Virus record (IMG/VR): IMGVR_UViG_3300006736_003897
Location: 1 to 20,433 of that record
DNA from: a virus
Strand: one strand, 5' to 3'
Length of the DNA: 20,433 nucleotides
Shown: positions 8,760-19,913 of the stretch, one piece after another
Position numbering within the stretch: the stretch's first letter is position 1
Layout: every line of letters starts with the position of its first letter
The notes under the pieces: generated by a model
What the model saw: only the letters and a program-made list of their open reading frames with translations
Databases searched by the model: none
Told to the model about the DNA's origin: nothing
Program-made: the position numbers and the translations under genes

Positions 8760-9980
8760 ATGAGGCTATGCTTGCATCGAGACGTATTGGGTGCCGACAG
8801 TCACCTGATAAGCTACGCGGGTACCGGTGAGTTTGAGTGGGTCTCATCTCTCCCGTCCGATGTCATGGTCTTTGGGGGCCCACACTCGAGTCACCTTTCT
8901 CTCGACGAGATTCTCGAAGCTCTTCAGGTGAAGGTGTCAGCCAGCCCAGGAGAGAGATATGAGACCGCCTGGCAGGAAGTCCGAGGCGGGGATCCTGGAT
9001 TTATCAAGTGGCAGTGGGTGCTGCCTCCTCGGGTCTTCCACAGATACGTCTCTGAGCTTCTGGATCAGCTCTGGAGGGTTCTTGAGGAGATAGATGGGAC
9101 GTACTATACGCAGGAGTTTCAGGTAGGTAGAAAGTTAATCCTAGAGCTAAGATCATCCAAGATCGATACGAGCTTATTGAATGATTTGATGAACTCCGAG
9201 GCACATTCAACTGTTAGGTCTACCCTTGCAGGATTCAAACCGACCAAGGGAGATATGCTAGATCCGCCGCGCTATAGTCGCACCGCATCTGTAACTGGAA
9301 GATTAACGGTAAAGTCAGGTCCAAACATTCTCACCTTGCGAAAAGACAACCGAAAAATAATTAAGTCAAGATATCCAAGAGGCAAAGTTATTCAGGTGGA
9401 TTTTGTCAGCTTGGAACCTCGTGTTCTGTTAGCTTCACAAGGGCAAGACCCACCTAGAGATATCTACAGTTATATTGCTAGCAGGGTTTTCAAGAATGAC
9501 ATCTCCCGGGCTGTTGTAAAGGAAGCGACACTAGGTGCGATGTTTGGAATATCTCCTAGAAGATTTCAGGAGACAACGCAGCTAGACATTAACAAAGCCA
9601 GTGACGTTCTCAAGGAGGTGAAAAAGTTTTTTAATATCTCGAGTCTCGGAAGAAGCCTAAAGAAAGAATTTTCAGAAAATGGTCATATTCTTAATCTATA
9701 TGGCAGAAAAATATTTCCGTCATCCTCAAGATCAAATGTTCTTGTCAATAATAAGGTGCAATCCTCTGGTGTTGACGCAGCCTTACTGGGATTTTCAAAT
9801 TTTCTAGAGATGGTTTCACATGCTGGGTGTGAGGTGATACCGATGTTCATCATCCACGACTCTCTGGTGCTTGATGTAAAAGAGAAAAACCTCGTAGATC
9901 TTCAGAGGATAGCTGATAGAGGTGTAAAAATTTCGGGATTTTCTGTGAATTTTCCCCTTTCTGTTGAAACTGTGAGCTAA
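8760..9980 (+). CDS. polA: Family A DNA polymerase, polymerase domain only (Leu762 type)
   Basis: This 406-residue protein has the core motifs of family A DNA polymerases. A thumb-to-palm segment contains TGRLTVKSGPNI (179-190). Motif A is VDFVSLEPRV, with catalytic Asp214, the sugar-selecting Glu219 and Arg221. Motif B on the O-helix has Arg250, Lys254, Leu258, Phe262 and Gly263. Motif C is IHDSLV, with His366 and catalytic Asp367. By alignment Leu258 takes the place of E. coli Pol I Phe762, and Phe262 that of Tyr766. The E of the usual HDE motif is Ser. The N-terminal 160 residues show neither 5' nuclease motifs nor the DxE of a 3'-5' exonuclease, so proofreading, if any, must come from another gene. 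It is shorter than T7 or Pol I enzymes. Base composition changes inside the gene. Likely role: phage genome replication with the helicase, recombinase and gp32-like protein encoded downstream. Confidence 0.93.
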   Translation: MRLCLHRDVLGADSHLISYAGTGEFEWVSSLPSDVMVFGGPHSSHLSLDEILEALQVKVSASPGERYETAWQEVRGGDPGFIKWQWVLPPRVFHRYVSELLDQLWRVLEEIDGTYYTQEFQVGRKLILELRSSKIDTSLLNDLMNSEAHSTVRSTLAGFKPTKGDMLDPPRYSRTASVTGRLTVKSGPNILTLRKDNRKIIKSRYPRGKVIQVDFVSLEPRVLLASQGQDPPRDIYSYIASRVFKNDISRAVVKEATLGAMFGISPRRFQETTQLDINKASDVLKEVKKFFNISSLGRSLKKEFSENGHILNLYGRKIFPSSSRSNVLVNNKVQSSGVDAALLGFSNFLEMVSHAGCEVIPMFIIHDSLVLDVKEKNLVDLQRIADRGVKISGFSVNFPLSVETVS

Positions 9981-10041: not shown

Positions 10042-10629
10042 ATGAGCGATAATTTATCTGAAATTGAAAGAAACTGGAATCTCTTTACAAAGTTATGTGA
10101 AAAGACCGATGTGAATGCTGAAGCCATATCTGGTCTTCTTGATGAGCTTGGAGACCGAATTGTGATGTGCCCAAGTAGGGATAGAAACACGTGGGTCACG
10201 TGCAAGACCGGAGGTCTGGTTGAAAATGCCTTAAACACCTTTAGAATTATTAGATCGCTTGATGAGGTAATGAAGTGGAATACACCAATTGGCTCTCTGA
10301 TCCTTGTGTCTCTATTTTACAACATAGGAAAGATTGGAGATCTCGACGGAAATGACCTGTTCTTACCCCAGGATTCTGATTGGCATCGAGAAAAGCTTGG
10401 ACAGCTTTACAAATACAATCCGGATATAGAGCGGATGTCAACTCCTCACCAGAGTCTCTTTATTCTGCAGTCTTTTGGTGTGGTCCTGAGTCAGGATGAG
10501 TGGCTAGCAATTGCCACTAGCTTTGGACCGGCCTTTGATGAAAATAAATTTTATGTGGGTCATGAGACTCAGCTTGCTTTGCTGTTGCAACAAGCTGTTC
10601 GGCTTGTGCAAGAAGAAGAAAAAGTATAA
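10042..10629 (+). CDS. Degenerate HD-domain protein, likely not a metal-dependent hydrolase
   Basis: This 195-residue protein follows the layout of small phage HD-domain hydrolases: GGLV-x-x-(S/A)L, then an LFHD(L/I)GK helix, a W...Y.N segment, an H-x-S-L turn, LS-x-x-E-x-x-AI-x-x-H, and a final LL-x-x-AD helix. Here the order is kept but the metal ligands are not. The first His is Asn62 (GGLVENAL), the HD pair is Tyr93-Asn94 (LFYNIGK), the His after the AI motif is Ser160 (AIATSFG), and the last Asp is Val186. Only His136 (TPHQSL) may remain. An intact HD protein would be a phosphohydrolase; this one probably lacks that activity and may bind nucleotide, DNA or a partner. It lies between the DNA polymerase and a protein of unknown function. 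The start has no ribosome binding site. The fold assignment is by motif spacing, with no alignment run. Confidence 0.6.
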   Translation: MSDNLSEIERNWNLFTKLCEKTDVNAEAISGLLDELGDRIVMCPSRDRNTWVTCKTGGLVENALNTFRIIRSLDEVMKWNTPIGSLILVSLFYNIGKIGDLDGNDLFLPQDSDWHREKLGQLYKYNPDIERMSTPHQSLFILQSFGVVLSQDEWLAIATSFGPAFDENKFYVGHETQLALLLQQAVRLVQEEEKV

Positions 10630-10657: not shown

Positions 10658-12193
10658 ATGGCGAAGACAAAATCTGATCAGCAATACTCAGGCCGCGGAA
10701 TAGCTGTCCCCCTAGCCGGAGCGATGCTCGGTGGCGATGACTATAAAGATAAAATAGGTGGCGGAAAGAAGCCATACTATAGAGGAAATCAAGGAACCCC
10801 CAGCCAGGGCGCTGATTCAACATATTCTTCCTATCTTGCTCGAGTTAACAGAGGGTTTGAAGATTATGAAGACTGGATGATGTTTCCTGAGCAAGAAGAG
10901 GAAGAGCTTGATATTTATGATGTAGATATAGAGGTTTTGCCTCTTACATCTAAGATGCCTAGATATGCTCGAACAGCCAGGAGAGCTAGATTGCTGGCAC
11001 CAAATGTGTCGGAGAAAAGAGTGACAAAAAGATACAGCCTGCTTGACCTACCTGATCCCCAGCGAATAGACGAGGGGACTCTCGGCTGGGCTGCTGATGT
11101 CGGGACAGATGTCTTGGGCGATATCGGCATGGCAGTTGCAGGAGCCGTCCCAGTCTTTGGAGATGCTGCTGCTGGACTCGCCGCCACTTGGAATGTCAAA
11201 CAGCTTGATGATGATATGTCAAGATCAGCATCAGCAATTCAGGATTTCTTAACGCTTCCGAGTGACGAGACCCGTGACAAACTAGAAGGCTGGATCGGCT
11301 CGATAGGTACCAATCTCATCGACCTGTTTCAGCGGCTTCTGGAGATGTCACCAGATCCTGGCGGAACTGAGACATTGAGCGGAGTGATAAGTGTAACTGG
11401 AGCTCTAAATAAACTGAAGCACATCATGACAGTCTTTAAGCGTACAAAGGCGGCCAGGCTCGCCGGCGTCGAGGGCTCATACATGGCCCCTGGGATGACA
11501 GTTGCTCAACGTCTTCGTCAGTCCTTGGGCAGAAGCTCGACGGGAGGAATTGCTGGGTTTAGATCAAAGCTCCGGCTAGGAGCACTTTCTGAGTGGTTTA
11601 TGGATGACTTAGCGTGGCTCTTAGAAAAAGGTGCCTCTTGGCTCCCAGGCCCGGTAGGTGAGGCTACTGAGTGGCTTTTATATGTTCCGTTGAGGATTGA
11701 TTTATTGGGTGACCTAATTGATGACTATGATCATCAAAAGGAAGTGTATGCCAGCGCAGGTCTTCCATTGGAATACGCATCAAGGGTGGATGTGAGTGAC
11801 ATAGAAAATTATCAAAGTGGAGCTGTCCCCGTGTGGGAAAGACCCATGTCTCAGATTGAGACGTTATCACAACAGGAATTAGGAGAAGGTATCATGATTA
11901 CAAACAAGGAACTGTTACAGAGATTTATTCGAGAGGCCATCGATCTAGAAAGCAATGAATCTAATTATATCTCTACGCTGGGAGGCTCTGCGGTTTACGA
12001 ACCATATTTGATGTCTCGCGCCGGAGAAGAGTCAGATGACGGAGAGTTTCTCAAAGGATTTGTGGTTAAACAAAAAATGCATGTCGGAACACATGGCAGT
12101 CATCCCAGAGTGACAGAGTCTCTCTTTAGGGAATTTATCAGGGGAAGACTTCGTGAAAAGCTAGCAGAAGCCAAAAAAAAAAGAAGAAGGTAA
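10658..12193 (+). CDS. Protein of unknown function, virion-type composition; zero-frame product
   Basis: This is a 511-residue protein I do not recognise. The N-terminal 110 residues are polar and rich in Gly, Tyr and acidic residues. A Gly/Ala-rich amphipathic or hydrophobic segment follows at about residues 150-175 (VGTDVLGDIGMAVAGAVPVF), then helical regions (185-285, 310-355). Two basic-acidic helices of the LLQRFIREAI and LFREFIRGRLREKL type lie at about 425-433 and 488-502. The Gly/Ala-rich stretch and overall composition resemble internal virion proteins or pre-toxin-like segments, but this is only resemblance. The zero frame ends with AKKKRRR and TAA directly after a run of ten A. The -1 frame stays open for a further 81 codons or so, so this ORF is probably not the whole protein. 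The start has no ribosome binding site but has a TATAAT seven bases upstream. Confidence 0.65.
   Translation: MAKTKSDQQYSGRGIAVPLAGAMLGGDDYKDKIGGGKKPYYRGNQGTPSQGADSTYSSYLARVNRGFEDYEDWMMFPEQEEEELDIYDVDIEVLPLTSKMPRYARTARRARLLAPNVSEKRVTKRYSLLDLPDPQRIDEGTLGWAADVGTDVLGDIGMAVAGAVPVFGDAAAGLAATWNVKQLDDDMSRSASAIQDFLTLPSDETRDKLEGWIGSIGTNLIDLFQRLLEMSPDPGGTETLSGVISVTGALNKLKHIMTVFKRTKAARLAGVEGSYMAPGMTVAQRLRQSLGRSSTGGIAGFRSKLRLGALSEWFMDDLAWLLEKGASWLPGPVGEATEWLLYVPLRIDLLGDLIDDYDHQKEVYASAGLPLEYASRVDVSDIENYQSGAVPVWERPMSQIETLSQQELGEGIMITNKELLQRFIREAIDLESNESNYISTLGGSAVYEPYLMSRAGEESDDGEFLKGFVVKQKMHVGTHGSHPRVTESLFREFIRGRLREKLAEAKKKRRR
12173..12182 (+). other. Run of ten A: candidate -1 slippage site
   Basis: The zero-frame codons here are GCC AAA AAA AAA AGA AGA AGG TAA. 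The run contains the A AAA AAA type of heptamer that allows -1 tRNA slippage, and it is also long enough for RNA polymerase to slip. A hairpin (TCCACC, TCA, GGTGGA; 12211-12225) lies 28 bases downstream, further than usual for a stimulator. A miscounted homopolymer (11 A, or 8) would give the same fusion. Confidence 0.55.
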
Positions 12194-12537: not shown

Positions 12538-13329
12538 ATGGCAGTTGATTTTGATGCAATCAGGCGTAAGCTTGATCAGCTTAGTGGAAACAATCGTCGG
12601 ACGTCGTCTACGTGGCGTCCCAAAGAGGGAGAGGAGCATACAGTTCGGCTTCTATCATTTCCCGATAATGACGGACAGCCCTTTAAGGAGCTGTGGTTTT
12701 ATTATAACATCGGTAGCAATCCAGGGCTTCTAGCCCCCTACCAGTTTGGAGATCCCGATCCCATTCAGGAGCTAATTACCAAGCTTCGGGATGAAGGTAC
12801 AAAAGAATCTTATGAGCTAGCTAAGAAGCTCTACCCCAAGATGCGGTGCTATGCTCCCGTGATTGTTAGAGGGGAGGAAGACAAGGGTGTTCAGGTGTGG
12901 GGATTCGGCAAGATGGTATATCAGTCACTTCTGAATATCATGCTTGATGAAGACTATGGCGATATCACAGATCATGCTGATGGTCGGGATATCAAGGTTA
13001 GCTGTAATAAGCAGCCTGGAAAGAAGTGGGCTACCACTGAGGTACTTCCTCGTGGGCGGACATCGCCTCTCGCAACCACAGCAGAGCAAGCTAATGGGTG
13101 GATGGATAATATCCCAGACGTGTCTACAATGTATGAGTGCAAGTCTTATGATGAGCTTTCAAAGATTGTAAGTGATTGGATTAATGGATCCTTCGAAGGA
13201 GAAGAAGACTCTCGTTCCGGTACCTCTAGAGGTGGTAGTGACTCTGAATCTTCTGGCGGAAGTGACACTCCCAAAAATAGCAAATATAAGAATCTAGACG
13301 ATGCATTTGCAGATTTGATGGGCGAGTAG
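12538..13329 (+). CDS. gp32-like single-strand DNA-binding protein
   Basis: This 263-residue protein has the layout of T4 gp32 relatives in marine phages. The N-terminal segment is basic and Ser/Thr-containing (MAVDFDAIRRKLDQLSG, then NNRR). The core binding domain, from about residue 28 to 215, has aromatic strands such as HTVRLLSFPD, ELWFYYNIG and VQVWGFGKMVY. A flexible Ser/Gly/Asp/Glu linker (220-248) leads to an acidic tip, NLDDAFADLMGE. The acidic tail is the usual contact for replication and recombination partners. The Cys/His zinc cluster of T4 gp32 is not visible: only Cys104, Cys156 and Cys201 occur, not in a cluster. It should coat single-stranded DNA for the polymerase, helicase and RecA-like protein encoded nearby. 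A strong AAGGAG site, its own leader and a hairpin terminator suggest separate, high expression. Confidence 0.88.
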   Translation: MAVDFDAIRRKLDQLSGNNRRTSSTWRPKEGEEHTVRLLSFPDNDGQPFKELWFYYNIGSNPGLLAPYQFGDPDPIQELITKLRDEGTKESYELAKKLYPKMRCYAPVIVRGEEDKGVQVWGFGKMVYQSLLNIMLDEDYGDITDHADGRDIKVSCNKQPGKKWATTEVLPRGRTSPLATTAEQANGWMDNIPDVSTMYECKSYDELSKIVSDWINGSFEGEEDSRSGTSRGGSDSESSGGSDTPKNSKYKNLDDAFADLMGE

Positions 13330-13429: not shown

Positions 13430-14623
13430 ATGTCAAGAAAAAAAGAGATAAATGCTAATGGAAAAACACAGGATTTTACTGTTGATCTAATTGAGGCTCT
13501 TAACAAAGAGCACGGATCACGAATCGCGTATAATCTAAGTGCTGATACCTCTCCTACACACGTTAAAAGGTGGATTAGTACGGGATCTAAGCTCTTAGAT
13601 TATATTTGCTCTAATCGACGGGATGGAGGTCTTCCAGAGGGAAGAATTGTTGAGATTTTTGGCCCTCCTTCTATTGGCAAGTCTCACATCGCGACTCAGA
13701 TTGCTAGAACCACCCAGAATATGGGTGGAATTGTTGTCTATATTGACACTGAAAATGCTACGTCTGTTGAAAATTTAGGTCTTTTGGGTGTTGATGTCTC
13801 TAGTCGGTTCGTGTATGTAGATACACACTGTACTGAAGAGGTTCTGTCTATTGCTGAGGCAACCATAATGAAAGCGAAGGCGATGGACAAGGACGTGCCA
13901 ATTACTATCATTTGGGATTCAGTTGCTGCGTCATCCCCAAAGGCAGAGCTAATTGGCGACTATGACAAGGAGTCTATTGGGTTGCAGGCTCGTGCCATCT
14001 CAAAGGGGATGAGAAAGATTACAGGAGTAATTGCAAATCAGAATGTGCTGTTTGTCATTCTCAATCAGATTAGAACAAAGATTGGAGTGATGTATGGAGA
14101 TCCTGATGTAACTCCTGGGGGAAAGGCGATTCCATTTCATGCTTCAACAAGAATCAAGCTCGGAGCTGGGCAGCAGATAAAAGACGGCGACGACGTAATT
14201 GGAATTCACGTTTCGGCCAAGACAATTAAGAATAAGGTTGCGCCTCCGTTTCGAAAGATTGATTTTGAGATTCATTTTGGAGTCGGGATCAAAGAGCATG
14301 AGCAGATGTTTGACATTCTGAGAAAGCACGGACCCGAGGTCATCGATGGAAAAGAAGTCGTAGTATCAGGTACAGGTTCTTGGAAGTGCATTACAATAAC
14401 TGATACAAAAACAGGTGAAATTCTCTCTGAGAAAAAATTTCACAAACCTAAGTTTAATGAGATCGTGAGATCTCCAGAGTATGCTCCATACATTGATGAT
14501 CTTCTGGAAAAAGTTATGATTAAGATATTTTCCGTCGATAATCTTGATATAGACCATGAATCTTATGAGGAGATTAGGTCACTCTCGGTGAGCTTAGGGG
14601 AGACTGTGGAACTTGAGAAGTGA
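13430..14623 (+). CDS. RecA/UvsX-like recombinase
   Basis: This 397-residue protein is a strand-exchange ATPase. Walker A is GPPSIGKS (78-85). The catalytic-Glu strand is YIDTEN (104-109). Walker B is ITIIWDS (158-164). The L2-region motif LNQIRTKIGVMYGDPDVTPG (211-230) is followed by GGKAIPFHAS, which is very close to bacterial RecA. It should form filaments on single-stranded DNA and drive recombination-dependent replication and repair, working with the gp32-like protein just upstream and the exonuclease, helicase and polymerase nearby. The L2 region is nearer RecA than T4 UvsX, so I give no symbol. The ATG at 13430 has no clear Shine-Dalgarno sequence; TATGCT (13415-13420) or TAGATT (13420-13425) could be a -10. 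The stop overlaps the next start (GTGA), giving translational coupling. Confidence 0.93.
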   Translation: MSRKKEINANGKTQDFTVDLIEALNKEHGSRIAYNLSADTSPTHVKRWISTGSKLLDYICSNRRDGGLPEGRIVEIFGPPSIGKSHIATQIARTTQNMGGIVVYIDTENATSVENLGLLGVDVSSRFVYVDTHCTEEVLSIAEATIMKAKAMDKDVPITIIWDSVAASSPKAELIGDYDKESIGLQARAISKGMRKITGVIANQNVLFVILNQIRTKIGVMYGDPDVTPGGKAIPFHASTRIKLGAGQQIKDGDDVIGIHVSAKTIKNKVAPPFRKIDFEIHFGVGIKEHEQMFDILRKHGPEVIDGKEVVVSGTGSWKCITITDTKTGEILSEKKFHKPKFNEIVRSPEYAPYIDDLLEKVMIKIFSVDNLDIDHESYEEIRSLSVSLGETVELEK

Positions 14624-15570
14624 AAACAGTTCTCCTAGTTGATGCTCTTAATCTCTTTACACGTCACTTTGTAGCCAACCCCTCCATGAGCATACATGGA
14701 CACCACGCCGGCGGAATGGTTGGTTTCTTAAATGGAATTAGGCTTCTTAATGAGCGGCTTCGACCATCACAGGTTATTGTTATCTGGGAGGGTGGGGGTT
14801 CTAGTCGTCGAAGAGCGATATATTCGCAGTATAAGGCCCAGCGACGGGCCCAAAAACTAAATAGATTTTATGGTGATGAAATTCCAGACTCTGTTCAGGG
14901 TAGGAATAATCAAATTTCTGTAATTGTGGAAATTTTAAAAAAGACTCCCGTATCTCAAATCTACGTACCTGACTGTGAAGCTGATGATGTAATAGGCTAT
15001 CTAGCTAGATACAAGCTTAAAGATAACAAGAAGGTGATCGTGTCTTCTGATAGGGATTTTTATCAGCTTTTGAATGAAAATGTTAGCATGTTTTCTCTTT
15101 CAAAAAAAAGATTTATCTTACCAGAAACTGTTTTAAAAGAGAACGGTATCTCTGCTAATAATTTTTGTCTCGCTAGAGCAATATGCGGAGACACCTCTGA
15201 TAACATAGGGGGAATAAAAGGCGCTGGGATTAAGACAGTATCTAAGAGATTCTCTGGCATGGCGTCGAGTCAGAGCATGACAATAGATGATATCATTAAT
15301 GAATCTAAGAAAATGTCAATGGGTAAACGTATTCCTAAAATTTATAAAGAGATATTGTCAAATGAAGACATAGTCAAAAGAAACTGGAAGCTGATGTATC
15401 TAGATACAAATAATCTGTCAGCTTATCAAATTAAGAATATTGACGACACAATTGATACTTTCAATCCTGTTAGAGATAAAATCTCTGTAATGAGAACACT
15501 GATCAGAGAGGGAATTCAAACTCTTGATGTTGATCGACTTTTCTTATCATTTAGCACAATGGATCTCTAG
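14620..15570 (+). CDS. 5'-3' exonuclease / flap endonuclease (T4 RNase H type)
   Basis: This 316-residue protein has the PIN-like nuclease plus helix-3-turn-helix layout of the 5' nuclease family. LLVDALNL (5-12) carries Asp8. A basic arch segment is SSRRRAIYSQYKAQRR (61-76). The metal cluster includes PDCEADDV (117-124; Glu120, Asp122, Asp123), SSDRDF (142-147; Asp144, Asp146) and GDTSDNI (190-196; Asp191, Asp194), followed by the DNA-binding turn GGIKGAGIKT (197-206). The usual second-strand Asp is Glu57 here (IWEGGG). It should remove RNA primers and 5' flaps on the lagging strand, a job not covered by the polymerase, which lacks this domain. The GTG start overlaps the recombinase stop, so expression is coupled; no independent ribosome binding site is needed. 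The next gene begins two bases after the stop. Confidence 0.9.
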   Translation: MKTVLLVDALNLFTRHFVANPSMSIHGHHAGGMVGFLNGIRLLNERLRPSQVIVIWEGGGSSRRRAIYSQYKAQRRAQKLNRFYGDEIPDSVQGRNNQISVIVEILKKTPVSQIYVPDCEADDVIGYLARYKLKDNKKVIVSSDRDFYQLLNENVSMFSLSKKRFILPETVLKENGISANNFCLARAICGDTSDNIGGIKGAGIKTVSKRFSGMASSQSMTIDDIINESKKMSMGKRIPKIYKEILSNEDIVKRNWKLMYLDTNNLSAYQIKNIDDTIDTFNPVRDKISVMRTLIREGIQTLDVDRLFLSFSTMDL

Positions 15571-15572
15571 AC

Positions 15573-16970
15573 ATGAATTCTGAAGAAGTATCTCCCCATC
15601 AGTCTCCCACATATTTCAAACAGTATGGAAAGGCCTTTCAAGAGAAAATATTTCAGTCTCTTATGACTGACAGTCCGTGGTCACTTCAGATGACTGAGAT
15701 CATGAATCCCTCATATTTTGAGCTTAATTATCTGAGATATCTCTCTGATAAGTACTTTACATATTTTTCAAAATACAAAGATTTCCCTACGATGCCTATC
15801 TTGATAACCATTATCAGGGATTCGCTTAGAGAGAGTAAGGATATTATTCTAAGAGATCAGATAATTGATTTTTTGCATAGAATAAAGACAAATCCGGACA
15901 TGGGAGATCTCAAATATGTTAAGGATAAGACTCTTGACTTTTGCAAAAGGCAGGCCTTTAAAGATGCGCTAGAGCTTGCGGTTACGGATATTGATCAGGG
16001 AAACTTTGACGGAGTTGTCTTTCGAATGAAAGAGGCATGTGCGCTTGGATTACCACACTCAGTTGGGCATGATTTTTTTGAGGATATGGAGTCTAGATTT
16101 TCTCTTATAAAGAGAAGCACATGTCCAACAGGAATTTCCGAATTAGATAAAAAAGATGTTCTAAATGGCGGATTGGGAAGGGGAGAGATTGGAGTTATCA
16201 CAGCTAATACGGGCGTAGGAAAATCTCACTTTTTGGTTTCTTTAGGTGCTGAAGCCTTGCGTCGAGGAAAAAATATAATTCACTATACTTTTGAGCTATC
16301 TGAGAACGCAGTTGGTCTAAGATATGATTCAAATTTCTGCAGCATACCCAGCAATGAGGTGATTGAAAGAAAATCGGAAATAATCCAAAAATATCAAGAC
16401 ATGGACCTTGGAAGGTTAATAATTAAATCATACCCAACAGGCTCCGCTACAGTGACAACCCTTCGCAGTCACATTGAAAAATTACTTTTAAAATCTTTTG
16501 TTCCCAACATGATTATAATTGATTATGCTGATATCATGAGATCGACTAGAAAATATGATTCCATGAGACATGAGCTAAAACTAATTTATGAGGAAATTAG
16601 AAATCTTGCGATGGATTTAAACCTACCGATCTGGACGGCGTCTCAGGCAAATAGAGATTCGGCGAACTCAGCCATAGTTGGTTTGGAAAACATGTCTGAG
16701 GCCTATGGAAAAGCTATGGTGGCCGATGTTGTGGTTTCACTTTCTAGAAAAGCCGCCGAAAAGACCTCAGGAGTCGGGAGGCTGTTTGTTGCTAAAAATC
16801 GAGCCGGACGGGATGGGATGCTTTTTCCAATTAATATCAATACAGCGATGTCAAAGATAACTGTTGTTGAAAATTCAGGGGAAATGTCTGTTAACGAGGT
16901 GATTGAAGCTCATGATAATTCAATGAAAGAGCTGCTAAAATCTAAGTGGGATGAGATAAATAGAAACTAA
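15573..16970 (+). CDS. Replicative DNA helicase, DnaB/gp41-like
   Basis: This 465-residue protein has the RecA-fold ATPase of DnaB-family hexameric helicases. Walker A is ANTGVGKS (211-218). The catalytic Glu lies in YTFELSE (Glu241). Walker B is MIIIDYAD (313-320). The glutamine motif is TASQANR (355-361), and a probable arginine-finger loop is KNRAGRDG (408-415). Residues 1-180 are helical and correspond to the N-terminal assembly domain, without a primase zinc finger or TOPRIM motif. A separate primase is therefore expected outside the window. It unwinds the fork for the family A polymerase, as gp41 or DnaB does. The ATG follows the exonuclease stop by two bases. The C-terminal 45 residues beyond the core are polar and may contact partners. 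Confidence 0.9.
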   Translation: MNSEEVSPHQSPTYFKQYGKAFQEKIFQSLMTDSPWSLQMTEIMNPSYFELNYLRYLSDKYFTYFSKYKDFPTMPILITIIRDSLRESKDIILRDQIIDFLHRIKTNPDMGDLKYVKDKTLDFCKRQAFKDALELAVTDIDQGNFDGVVFRMKEACALGLPHSVGHDFFEDMESRFSLIKRSTCPTGISELDKKDVLNGGLGRGEIGVITANTGVGKSHFLVSLGAEALRRGKNIIHYTFELSENAVGLRYDSNFCSIPSNEVIERKSEIIQKYQDMDLGRLIIKSYPTGSATVTTLRSHIEKLLLKSFVPNMIIIDYADIMRSTRKYDSMRHELKLIYEEIRNLAMDLNLPIWTASQANRDSANSAIVGLENMSEAYGKAMVADVVVSLSRKAAEKTSGVGRLFVAKNRAGRDGMLFPININTAMSKITVVENSGEMSVNEVIEAHDNSMKELLKSKWDEINRN

Positions 16971-16980
16971 GGGAGAGTCC

Positions 16981-19458
16981 GTGGCTAAATTTGAAGAGGT
17001 TGTAAGCAAAAGCATTGAATATTTTAACGGGGATGAGCTTGCAGCAAATGTGTTTGCCACCAAATATGCTCTTTGTGATAAACTTGGAAATTATTTTGAA
17101 TTTACGCCAGACGAAATGCACAGAAGGCTAGCAAAGGAATTTGCAAGAATTGAGAAAAAGTATCCAAACCCGATGCCAGCAGATGAGATCTATGCTCTCT
17201 TTGAAAAATTTAAGTATGTAGTTCCGCAGGGCTCACCGATGTCTGGAATTGGAAACCCCTATCAGATCCAATCGATCTCTAATTGTTTTGTGATTGAATC
17301 ACCTCATGACTCATACGGAGGAATTCTTAAGACGGATCAGGAGCTTGTTCAGATTGCTAAGCGCAGGGGCGGTGTGGGATTTGATATCTCCACAATTCGA
17401 CCTAAAGGATTATCTACCGCTAACGCTGCTAAAACGACTGATGGAATTAGGATCTTTATGGAAAGATTTTCTAATTCATGTAGAGAGGTAGCCCAGGGAG
17501 GACGTCGAGGGGCGTTGATGATGACGATTTCAGTTCATCACCCTGACATACAGACGTTTATAAACATAAAGAGAAACCTTAAAAAAGTGACCGGTGCAAA
17601 CATTTCGATTAGATTAACAGATGAGTTTCTGGCTGCAGTTAATTCAAAGGATAAGGTACGCCTAAGATTTCCAGTTGAGAAAGACTCTGAGCCGCTGGTT
17701 GAAGCCTGGGTTGATGCACAGGAGCTGTGGGAGGAGATAATCTCATCTGCTTATGAGTGTGCTGAGCCCGGATTGCTATTTTGGGATACAGCCAGGCGCT
17801 GCACTCCTTCTGACATATATGAAGAAGAAGGATTTGGGTCTACATCTACGAACCCATGCGGAGAAATTATTTTGTCTCCGTATGATAGTTGTCGACTCAT
17901 GGTTATAAATCTTCTTTCCTTTGTTAAGAACCCTTTCACAAGTGATGCAGAATTTGACTATGAGAAGATGGGAGACGTAGTTCAAAAATCCCAGCGTCTC
18001 ATGGATGACATGGTAGATCTTGAGATAGAGCAGGTTAAAAAAATTATTCAAAAAATAAAGAATGACCCAGAGCCTACTGCTGTCAAGGTGATTGAAATTG
18101 ATTTATGGAAAAATATTGCAACCATGGCTAAGCTTGGAAGAAGAACAGGCTTAGGAGTCACTGCAGTGGGAGATGCCTTAGCAGCGCTTGGAGTTCAATA
18201 TGGATCTAATAGATCTATTGAGACCGTTGGACTTTTTTATAGGACTTTAGCAGTAAATGCATATCGGTCTTCCTGCATCATGGCAAAGGAAAGAGGAGCA
18301 TTTGAAATTCATGATCACGACAAGGAGCGAGGGAATGAGTTTTTAGAAAGAATCTGGGCTGAGGCGCCTGACATATATGAGATGAGCCATAAGTTTGGTC
18401 GTCGTAATATTGCTCTGACGACAACAGCACCAGCAGGATCAGTTTCTGTTCTTACGCAAACCACCAGCGGGATTGAGCCGGCATATATGCTAAAGTATAC
18501 CCGTCGTAAAAAGTTAACTGAAAACGATCTCGATGGAAGAGTAGATTTTGTTGACGATTCAGGCGATCGATGGCAGGAATATGACGTTTATCATCATGGA
18601 TTTGAAAAGTGGATGAAGGAACAGAAAGACGAAATAAAAACGTTGCCCTTTGAGGAGCTTGAGGGACTAAGCCCATACTCAAAAGCAATCTCAGGTGATG
18701 TTAATTGGGTCGCCAAGGTAAAGATGCAAGCAGCAGCACAAATGTGGGTCTGTCACGCAATCTCTAACACAACTAACATTCCATCTGATACTGACATTGA
18801 GACTGTTAAGAAGATATACATGACAGGATGGAAGTCTGGCTGTAAAGGAGTTACTGTATATCGAGATGGATGTCGTTCAGGTGTGCTTATCAAAAGGAAA
18901 AAAAGCAGGTTTAGGACGCATGATGCTCCTTTCCGGCCCAAAGAATTAACGTGCTCCATTCATCACGCGTCAATTAAAGGTGAAGACTGGACCATTCTTG
19001 TTGGACTTATGGATGGTAGGCCCTATGAGGTCATGGGAGGTCTTCAAAAGTACATAGAGATTCCCAGAAAGTACAGGGAAGGAATCATTGTAAAGCATCC
19101 AAGAAAAACTCGAAACTCTATTTATGATCTTCGAGTGGGGAAAAATGGTGATGAATTTGTGATAAAGGATATCGTTTCAGTATTTGATAATCCTAATCAT
19201 GCCGGATTTACGAGAACCATCTCATTAGCTCTCCGTCACGGTGCTTCAATTCACTATGTTGTTGAACAGCTTCAAAAAGATCGAGAGATGGATATGTTTT
19301 CATTTTCTAAGGTGATCTCTCGAGTTCTTAAAAGCTATATCAAGGATGGTACTGTTCCCGGAAAGACGACTTGTGAAAATTGTGGGGCCGAGGATTCCCT
19401 AAGATATCAAGAAGGATGTGTGATGTGTACTGCATGCGGAAGTGGTAAGTGCGGATGA
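16981..19458 (+). CDS. nrdJ: Adenosylcobalamin-dependent class II ribonucleotide reductase
   Basis: This 825-residue enzyme reduces ribonucleotides to deoxyribonucleotides using a B12-derived radical. The active site is complete: Cys102 (SNCFV) and Cys304 form the substrate-reducing pair, and NPCGEI at 291-296 supplies Asn291, thiyl Cys293 and Glu295. The 11-residue spacing Cys293-Cys304 equals that of Thermotoga NrdJ. TTAPAGSVSVLTQTTSGIEP and the TGWKSGCKGVTVYRDG segment are typical of the family. A TSCPD-like domain spans about 655-790, and the C-terminus has a Cys-rich tail (C798, C801, C813, C816, C819, C824) that includes the mobile redox pair CGSGKC. No class I or III features occur. 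The start is GTG with a GGGAG site five bases before it. It supplies dNTPs to the replication module. The host, or the phage's host community, must provide B12. Confidence 0.95.
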   Translation: MAKFEEVVSKSIEYFNGDELAANVFATKYALCDKLGNYFEFTPDEMHRRLAKEFARIEKKYPNPMPADEIYALFEKFKYVVPQGSPMSGIGNPYQIQSISNCFVIESPHDSYGGILKTDQELVQIAKRRGGVGFDISTIRPKGLSTANAAKTTDGIRIFMERFSNSCREVAQGGRRGALMMTISVHHPDIQTFINIKRNLKKVTGANISIRLTDEFLAAVNSKDKVRLRFPVEKDSEPLVEAWVDAQELWEEIISSAYECAEPGLLFWDTARRCTPSDIYEEEGFGSTSTNPCGEIILSPYDSCRLMVINLLSFVKNPFTSDAEFDYEKMGDVVQKSQRLMDDMVDLEIEQVKKIIQKIKNDPEPTAVKVIEIDLWKNIATMAKLGRRTGLGVTAVGDALAALGVQYGSNRSIETVGLFYRTLAVNAYRSSCIMAKERGAFEIHDHDKERGNEFLERIWAEAPDIYEMSHKFGRRNIALTTTAPAGSVSVLTQTTSGIEPAYMLKYTRRKKLTENDLDGRVDFVDDSGDRWQEYDVYHHGFEKWMKEQKDEIKTLPFEELEGLSPYSKAISGDVNWVAKVKMQAAAQMWVCHAISNTTNIPSDTDIETVKKIYMTGWKSGCKGVTVYRDGCRSGVLIKRKKSRFRTHDAPFRPKELTCSIHHASIKGEDWTILVGLMDGRPYEVMGGLQKYIEIPRKYREGIIVKHPRKTRNSIYDLRVGKNGDEFVIKDIVSVFDNPNHAGFTRTISLALRHGASIHYVVEQLQKDREMDMFSFSKVISRVLKSYIKDGTVPGKTTCENCGAEDSLRYQEGCVMCTACGSGKCG

Positions 19459-19913
19459 CAACATCTGAACTTATGCACCTTGTGACCGTCACTGACGATG
19501 CCGGTATCCAAGTGCGCAAGCTGCTCAACGAAGAAGGCAACCCTGCGATGGGACTTCGCCTGGGAATTAAGGGCGGAGGCTGCTCTGGGTTGTCCTATGT
19601 GATGGACTTCACAGAGGAGCAGGAAGGGGACACTGTGATCGAATATGATGGATTCCGGGTATTTCTAGACCGAAAGAGCACGATTTATCTCTCTGGCATC
19701 ACCTTGGATCACCAGAGTGGACTGGAAGGAAAGGGTTTTGTCTTTCAGAACCCGGCAGCCACCAACACCTGCGGTTGTGGGGAAAAGCTTCTCTCTCTGA
19801 CATGCGTGCAGGATAAATTATTTGATCTTGCTGATATTAAGTTATGCATAGACATGAAGCCCTATTTATTTCTTAATGGATTGGAGATAGACTATTCAAT
19901 CATGCGGTTGTAG
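19455..19913 (+). CDS. A-type Fe-S cluster carrier (ErpA/IscA/SufA family) with C-terminal extension
   Basis: The first 115 residues are a complete A-type carrier: GGGCSGLSY (Cys43) and NTCGCGE (Cys106, Cys108) give the three cluster-binding cysteines at normal spacing, with FVFQNP before the last pair. Such proteins receive Fe-S clusters from a scaffold and pass them to target enzymes. Family members normally end soon after CGCG-x-x-x; this one runs on for about 37 residues (CVQDKLFDLADIKLCIDMK and beyond) with no known match. The carrier part is GC-rich (36 of 60 bases at 19501-19560) and the tail AT-rich (21 of 60 at 19801-19860). I chose ATG 19455, which overlaps the reductase stop (ATGA); GTG 19449 is an alternative. 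It sits in the nucleotide and host-takeover operon. I cannot decide between ErpA, IscA and SufA. Confidence 0.92.
   Translation: MTTSELMHLVTVTDDAGIQVRKLLNEEGNPAMGLRLGIKGGGCSGLSYVMDFTEEQEGDTVIEYDGFRVFLDRKSTIYLSGITLDHQSGLEGKGFVFQNPAATNTCGCGEKLLSLTCVQDKLFDLADIKLCIDMKPYLFLNGLEIDYSIMRL

Follow-up and report, generated by a model that had tools for sequence, protein, structure and literature searches.

An HD-fold protein that has lost its metal ligands, encoded beside a small family-A DNA polymerase in a virus

The locus

The window analysed here is a stretch of 20,433 nucleotides, positions 1 to 20,433 of the IMG/VR virus record IMGVR_UViG_3300006736_003897. At its centre lies the gene of a 195-residue protein, referred to below as HDL, whose reading frame extends from an ATG at 10042 to a TAA ending at 10629. 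The genes that bear on its interpretation are as follows.

8760..9980, + strand: small family-A DNA polymerase (PolA), 406 aa; Pfam DNA_pol_A at 7.4e-16, polymerase domain only
10042..10629, + strand: HDL gene, putative pseudo-HD protein, 195 aa; open reading frame, PHROG 28876, AlphaFold2 model and YhaM HD fold match
12538..13329, + strand: gp32-like ssDNA-binding protein (SSB), conserved neighbour
13430..14623, + strand: UvsX-like recombinase, conserved neighbour
14620..15570, + strand: 5'-3' exonuclease, conserved neighbour
15573..16970, + strand: DnaB-like replicative helicase, conserved neighbour

The window protein matches a single family, PHROG 28876, named 'metal-dependent phosphohydrolase' (E = 2.3e-5). 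A search of Pfam-A returned no match for it, whereas 42 of 50 members of its family match PF01966 (HD), the best at 4.6e-10. Pfam HDOD is likewise unmatched by the window protein and is matched weakly by 26 of the 50 relatives (best 2.6e-4). A PDB sequence search with a profile of the window type gave no credible match. Relatives in IMG/VR numbered 136 in a first scan and at least 585 in a profile-based scan, and phage HD homologues include the 'phosphohydrolase' of Flavobacterium phage immuto (immuto35A_150) and gp21 of Streptococcus phage Dp-1, a member of PHROG 28876 that differs from HDL in its long extra C-terminal tail.

A predicted HD fold closest to that of YhaM

An AlphaFold2 model of the window protein, built from a 50-sequence alignment, has a pLDDT of 95.4 and a pTM of 0.91. 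It is almost entirely helical, and its best match in the PDB is the HD domain of YhaM (9h3f; TM 0.67/0.63, Foldseek E 0.011), which covers HDL along its length and leaves no additional domain. Weaker matches are to other HD proteins (SAMHD1, dNTPases, MIOX and 1xx7), and the top match among viral models is a 434-residue protein (TM 0.74), close in length to the PHROG 28876 profile. By this model HDL is an HD-fold protein, as an earlier note on this DNA had proposed from the letters alone; the model and the Foldseek matches together rule out an unrelated fold.

A separate model of L187, a relative with an intact site (HHD-H-D) from the same genomic place, again gave YhaM as the best match (TM 0.70/0.66, E 1e-3), and a profile from an alignment led by L187 matches Cbf1/YhaM by sequence (9o7t, E = 0.001). 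Because the individual Foldseek E-values are modest, assignment to the branch of YhaM/Cbf1, a 3'-5' exoribonuclease, is to be read as a best match and not as proof. YhaM carries an additional N-terminal OB-fold domain. HDL differs from it in having no separate N-terminal domain, in its length of about 195 residues and in its own QDSDWHREKLG motif; its derived clade (see below) further differs in lacking D186 and H160, and the window protein in lacking every ligand. DatZ, the small HD dATPase of phage S-2L, was considered as an alternative relative; no DatZ chain stands among the 50 listed fold matches of the window protein, no sequence match was found, and the metal ligands are also absent.

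The metal site in the window

Alignment with intact-site homologues fixed the ligand columns at H62, H93-D94, H160 and D186; position 136 is accessory, and a further His, at 52, is ancestral. Immuto and the relative L193 read HHD-H-D across these sites, and freshwater-type relatives HHD-N-D; immuto35A_150, unlike the window protein, keeps H, HD, H and D. The corresponding features of the window gene are listed here with the conserved motif.

10195..10197, + strand: Val52, where the ancestral type has a conserved His (H52; His in 97% of members keeping D186, 115-sequence set)
10225..10227, + strand: Asn62, first of the HD ligand sites; intact relatives have His here (alignment)
10318..10323, + strand: Tyr93-Asn94, site of the 'HD' doublet (His-Asp in intact relatives; alignment)
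10369..10401, + strand: QDSDWHREKLG motif, residues 110-120, near-invariant with or without D186; residues 110-119 invariant in alignment A1
10447..10449, + strand: His136, the only canonical HD position still occupied by His; this residue is conserved to 97% among derived-clade members and varies in the ancestral type
10519..10521, + strand: Ser160, ligand site (His in intact relatives, elsewhere mostly Asn, Ala or Ser; alignment)
10597..10599, + strand: Val186, last of the ligand sites; intact relatives have Asp here, most of the derived clade Lys or Arg, and the window and L314 Val

The residues that the earlier note had read at these sites (Asn62, Tyr93-Asn94, Ser160 and Val186, with His136 kept) are exact, and Val52 is added to its list. 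With N62, Y93, N94 and V186, the window protein lacks the H...HD...D set of catalytic members of the HD superfamily (PF01966). The note had also allowed for ligands elsewhere in the chain; no displaced H...HD...D set is present in the rest of the protein. The unusual residues are not a sequencing error, since a second IMG/VR contig, 3300006753_004704, 99.9% identical to the window over 10.6 kb, encodes an identical HDL, and since the sister protein L314 (56% identical) has lost three of the sites as well, with F62, A94, S160 and V186. Across IMG/VR the window-like pattern YN.GK.GDL retrieved only the near-identical contig.

Stepwise loss of the site across the family

The window protein was aligned with 154 unique viral relatives, giving a set of 155. 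The minimal H...HD...D set is kept in 58 of these. D186 is absent from 96, where it is replaced by Lys (74), Arg (16), Asn (3), Val (2) or Ile (1). In 36 of the 155, H62, H93 or the acid at position 94 has additionally been lost, and none of these 36 retains D186. All four sites are gone in the window protein only.

On a tree built with the ligand columns left out, H160 and D186 each require a minimum of two changes, and D186 is missing throughout a clade of 93 members (SH-aLRT 96), the derived clade. The earlier note had asked whether the loss is shared by homologues: that of D186 is clade-wide, and that of the complete site is peculiar to the window. The window protein pairs with L314 (SH-aLRT 99), and L323 joins them next to members having Lys or Arg at 186. 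Sites 62, 93 and 94 require at least 10, 3 and 7 changes, respectively, with Asp or Glu at 94 scored as kept. All reconstructed losses at these three sites fall on branches without D186, but 73% of the total tree length lies on such branches (P ~0.1 to 0.4 per site), so that this confinement is suggestive and not strong. Because most members of the derived clade retain H62 and H93-D/E94, loss of activity is less certain for them than for the window protein. This single gene family, at one genomic place, offers a graded natural series that runs from an intact HD metal site to its complete loss.

A different combination of changes is seen in L380, L390 and L376, in which the HD doublet has become Cys-Leu, accompanied by Ala160 and Asn186, with H62 retained. 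Judged from these residues, the three appear to be a second, separate lineage of dead HD proteins.

What has been conserved

In pairs of other decayed relatives, dN/dS (where computable) is 0.06-0.18, indicative of purifying selection. Of 49 positions with a conservation of 90% or more across the derived clade, the window protein retains 43; H93 and K186 are among the six that it has lost. Its divergence from L314 by codon position is 0.38/0.22/0.62, with synonymous sites saturated. The QDSDWHREKLG motif is near-invariant both in members that keep D186 and in those that do not, which argues that its role predates the loss of the site and is independent of the canonical metal; the remaining constraint on HDL sits in this older motif. 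From the alignments, the HD fold, His136, the motif and an E-N-x-x-Y patch appear to be what selection has retained.

The genomic neighbourhood and the small polymerase

The loci of 114 relatives were compared; the same PolA is present in 99 and the same SSB in 104, and the gene order is baseplate, PolA, HDL, SSB, UvsX, 5'-3' exonuclease, DnaB. To avoid selection on HDL itself, a second set of loci was fetched with PolA as the query, and HDL lies downstream of PolA in 78 of the 79 PolA-seeded contigs with room for it, at spacings from a slight overlap to ~1.8 kb; the two genes often overlap by a few bases. The position beside the polymerase gene, remarked upon in the earlier note, is not due to chance. 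HDL is not strictly required, because L365 carries the same PolA and SSB without an HDL anywhere on its 26-kb contig; there, an unrelated ORF of ~210 residues (L365:5155-5793) occupies the place of HDL.

Almost every complete PolA has close to 400 residues, and Pfam recognises the polymerase domain only. The window PolA retains the aspartates of motif A (VDFVSLEPR) and motif C (HDS; alignment A3); motif C reads HDS in the window and HDA in aligned relatives, instead of HDE. Across 13 related contigs of 38-298 kb, no PolA-type exonuclease (PF01612) and no PolB were found, and a DnaQ-type exonuclease (PF00929) occurs in one. Ten of the 13 encode PolIII-alpha; the window is too short to reveal a second polymerase. 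As most large related contigs also carry PolIII-alpha, the small PolA is probably a second polymerase rather than the main replicase.

This arrangement recalls the divPolA1 phages, immuto among them, in which a divergent PolA with an inactivated exonuclease accompanies conserved replication genes and a second, regular polymerase (Yutin et al., 2024, PMC11348598). The window PolA fits by description and may be a second polymerase of the divPolA1 type. Neither 'HD domain' nor 'hydrolase' occurs in the main text of that study. No small PolA was recognised beside the HD gene of immuto, the PolA profile has no close match in that phage, and an identification of immuto gene 154 as a PolA is not supported.

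Gene order supports a partnership of PolA and HDL, to which correlated distances add little: once shared ancestry is allowed for, the two co-vary weakly (partial correlation 0.28 in a mirror-tree test), and no natural fusion of the two was seen among the fetched loci. Since the whole gene order is conserved, PolA need not be the partner. HDL can nonetheless be described as an unrecognised conserved neighbour, and possibly a partner, of the divergent small PolA in marine phages.

Function of HDL

The reading that we favour, with a probability of roughly 0.55, is that HDL is a pseudo-HD protein, a non-catalytic partner within the replication module descended from a YhaM-like metal-dependent enzyme; both the partner and the role are deduced from the context described above. 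The proposal of the earlier note that the fold is kept while the chemistry is gone holds for the modelled fold and for the complete loss of ligands, shared in graded form with the sister protein and the clade, and it agrees with the purifying selection in decayed lineages; inactivity itself is what these observations lead one to expect. As relatives display stepwise loss beside the same small polymerase gene, the window HDL has probably ceased to be an enzyme and serves as a binding component of the viral DNA-copying machinery. The features that selection retained (fold, motif, His136 and the E-N-x-x-Y patch) make binding its most likely mode of action, and HDL would be expected to hold no metal, to have no activity and to bind PolA or DNA.

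The history may be pictured as follows. In tailed, mostly marine phages, the ancestor would have been a small HD metalloenzyme of the YhaM kind, with the gene of a family-A polymerase of ~400 residues beside its own; Mn-dependent 3'-5' nuclease activity or phosphohydrolase activity is plausible for it. Loss of H160 would have come early, and that of D186 would date to the base of the large clade or close to it, after which the remaining ligands would have drifted away repeatedly, until in the window all were gone. The resulting protein would serve as a non-catalytic subunit or cofactor holding PolA and/or ssDNA or nucleotide in a PolA-HDL-SSB-UvsX-exonuclease-DnaB module. Beside a polymerase in which no exonuclease is recognisable, an ancestral role in end trimming would be plausible.

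Using Mn(II), YhaM degrades ssRNA and ssDNA from their 3' ends, and its HD mutants are inactive (PMC11347170). Its HD mutant D193A still bound RNA, so that loss of catalysis in this fold need not abolish binding (PMC11347170). A bolder account, which we regard as doubtful, is that a trans-acting 3'-5' nuclease of the HD type gave rise here to a phage polymerase subunit: the ancestor would have provided end trimming or proofreading to the exonuclease-less PolA, and the derived clade would have dropped the chemistry and kept the protein as a partner for structure or processivity, the window marking the end point. The comparable proposal that YhaM proofreads in trans for B. subtilis DnaE was tested and not supported (PMC5627055). 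Whether HDL is a polymerase subunit becomes a directly testable question with this family.

The retention of a non-metal pocket and of motif residues while ligands were lost could instead reflect a sensor of nucleotides or nucleic acids, in which the HD pocket would bind a nucleotide or a DNA end and signal to replication or recombination proteins, without HDL being a polymerase subunit. Non-catalytic HD-fold proteins are known in cells; HDOD and other pseudo-HD proteins, such as the inactive hydrolase domain of RelA, keep the HD fold, have lost the ligands and act as regulatory domains. HDL resembles them in retaining the fold without metal ligands and differs in that the window protein has no Pfam HDOD match. 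The strict position after PolA and before SSB suits a replication component at least as well, and we consider a sensor unlikely. Somewhat less probable still is an enzyme that remains active through a rebuilt metal site, with H136 joined by H115, D111 and D113 of the QDSDWHREKLG motif in place of the canonical ligands. In its favour, conservation of His136 rises to 97% in the derived clade, whereas ancestral-type members vary at this position, and the motif residues H115, D111 and S112 hardly change; however, the motif is equally conserved where the canonical site is intact, and so did not arise as a replacement, and D113 is variable in the group lacking D186 (71/96).

That the window protein is merely a decaying, functionless relic of a dispensable enzyme is very improbable. 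It is the most degenerate of the 155 and the gene is missing from L365, but its reading frame is intact, the conserved positions are largely kept, the divergence from L314 is biased to third codon positions, and decayed sister lineages evolve under the low dN/dS given above. A decoy role, raised in the earlier note beside accessory and sensor functions, finds no support. Among the open-licence full-text papers searched, no case of clade-wide, graded loss of the HD site in a phage replication-module gene was found.

Further genes at these loci

In about half of the related loci an ORF of ~140-230 residues, absent from the window, lies between PolA and HDL (for example L028:4315-4941, L134:4365-4937 and L029:4454-4975); Pfam and PHROG searches of such ORFs of ~190 residues gave no confident family. 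The ORF in this place at L065:4079-4999, and similar ones in some other loci, resemble homing endonucleases. Directly after HDL, window positions 10658-12193 encode a 511-residue protein that has no Pfam or PHROG match and whose relatives lie between HDL and SSB in 40 of the 114 loci. Farther downstream, positions 16981-19913 encode the large subunit of a ribonucleotide reductase, which matches TSCPD weakly close to the C-terminus, and the end of this gene is overlapped by that of an Fe-S cluster biosynthesis protein of the A type.
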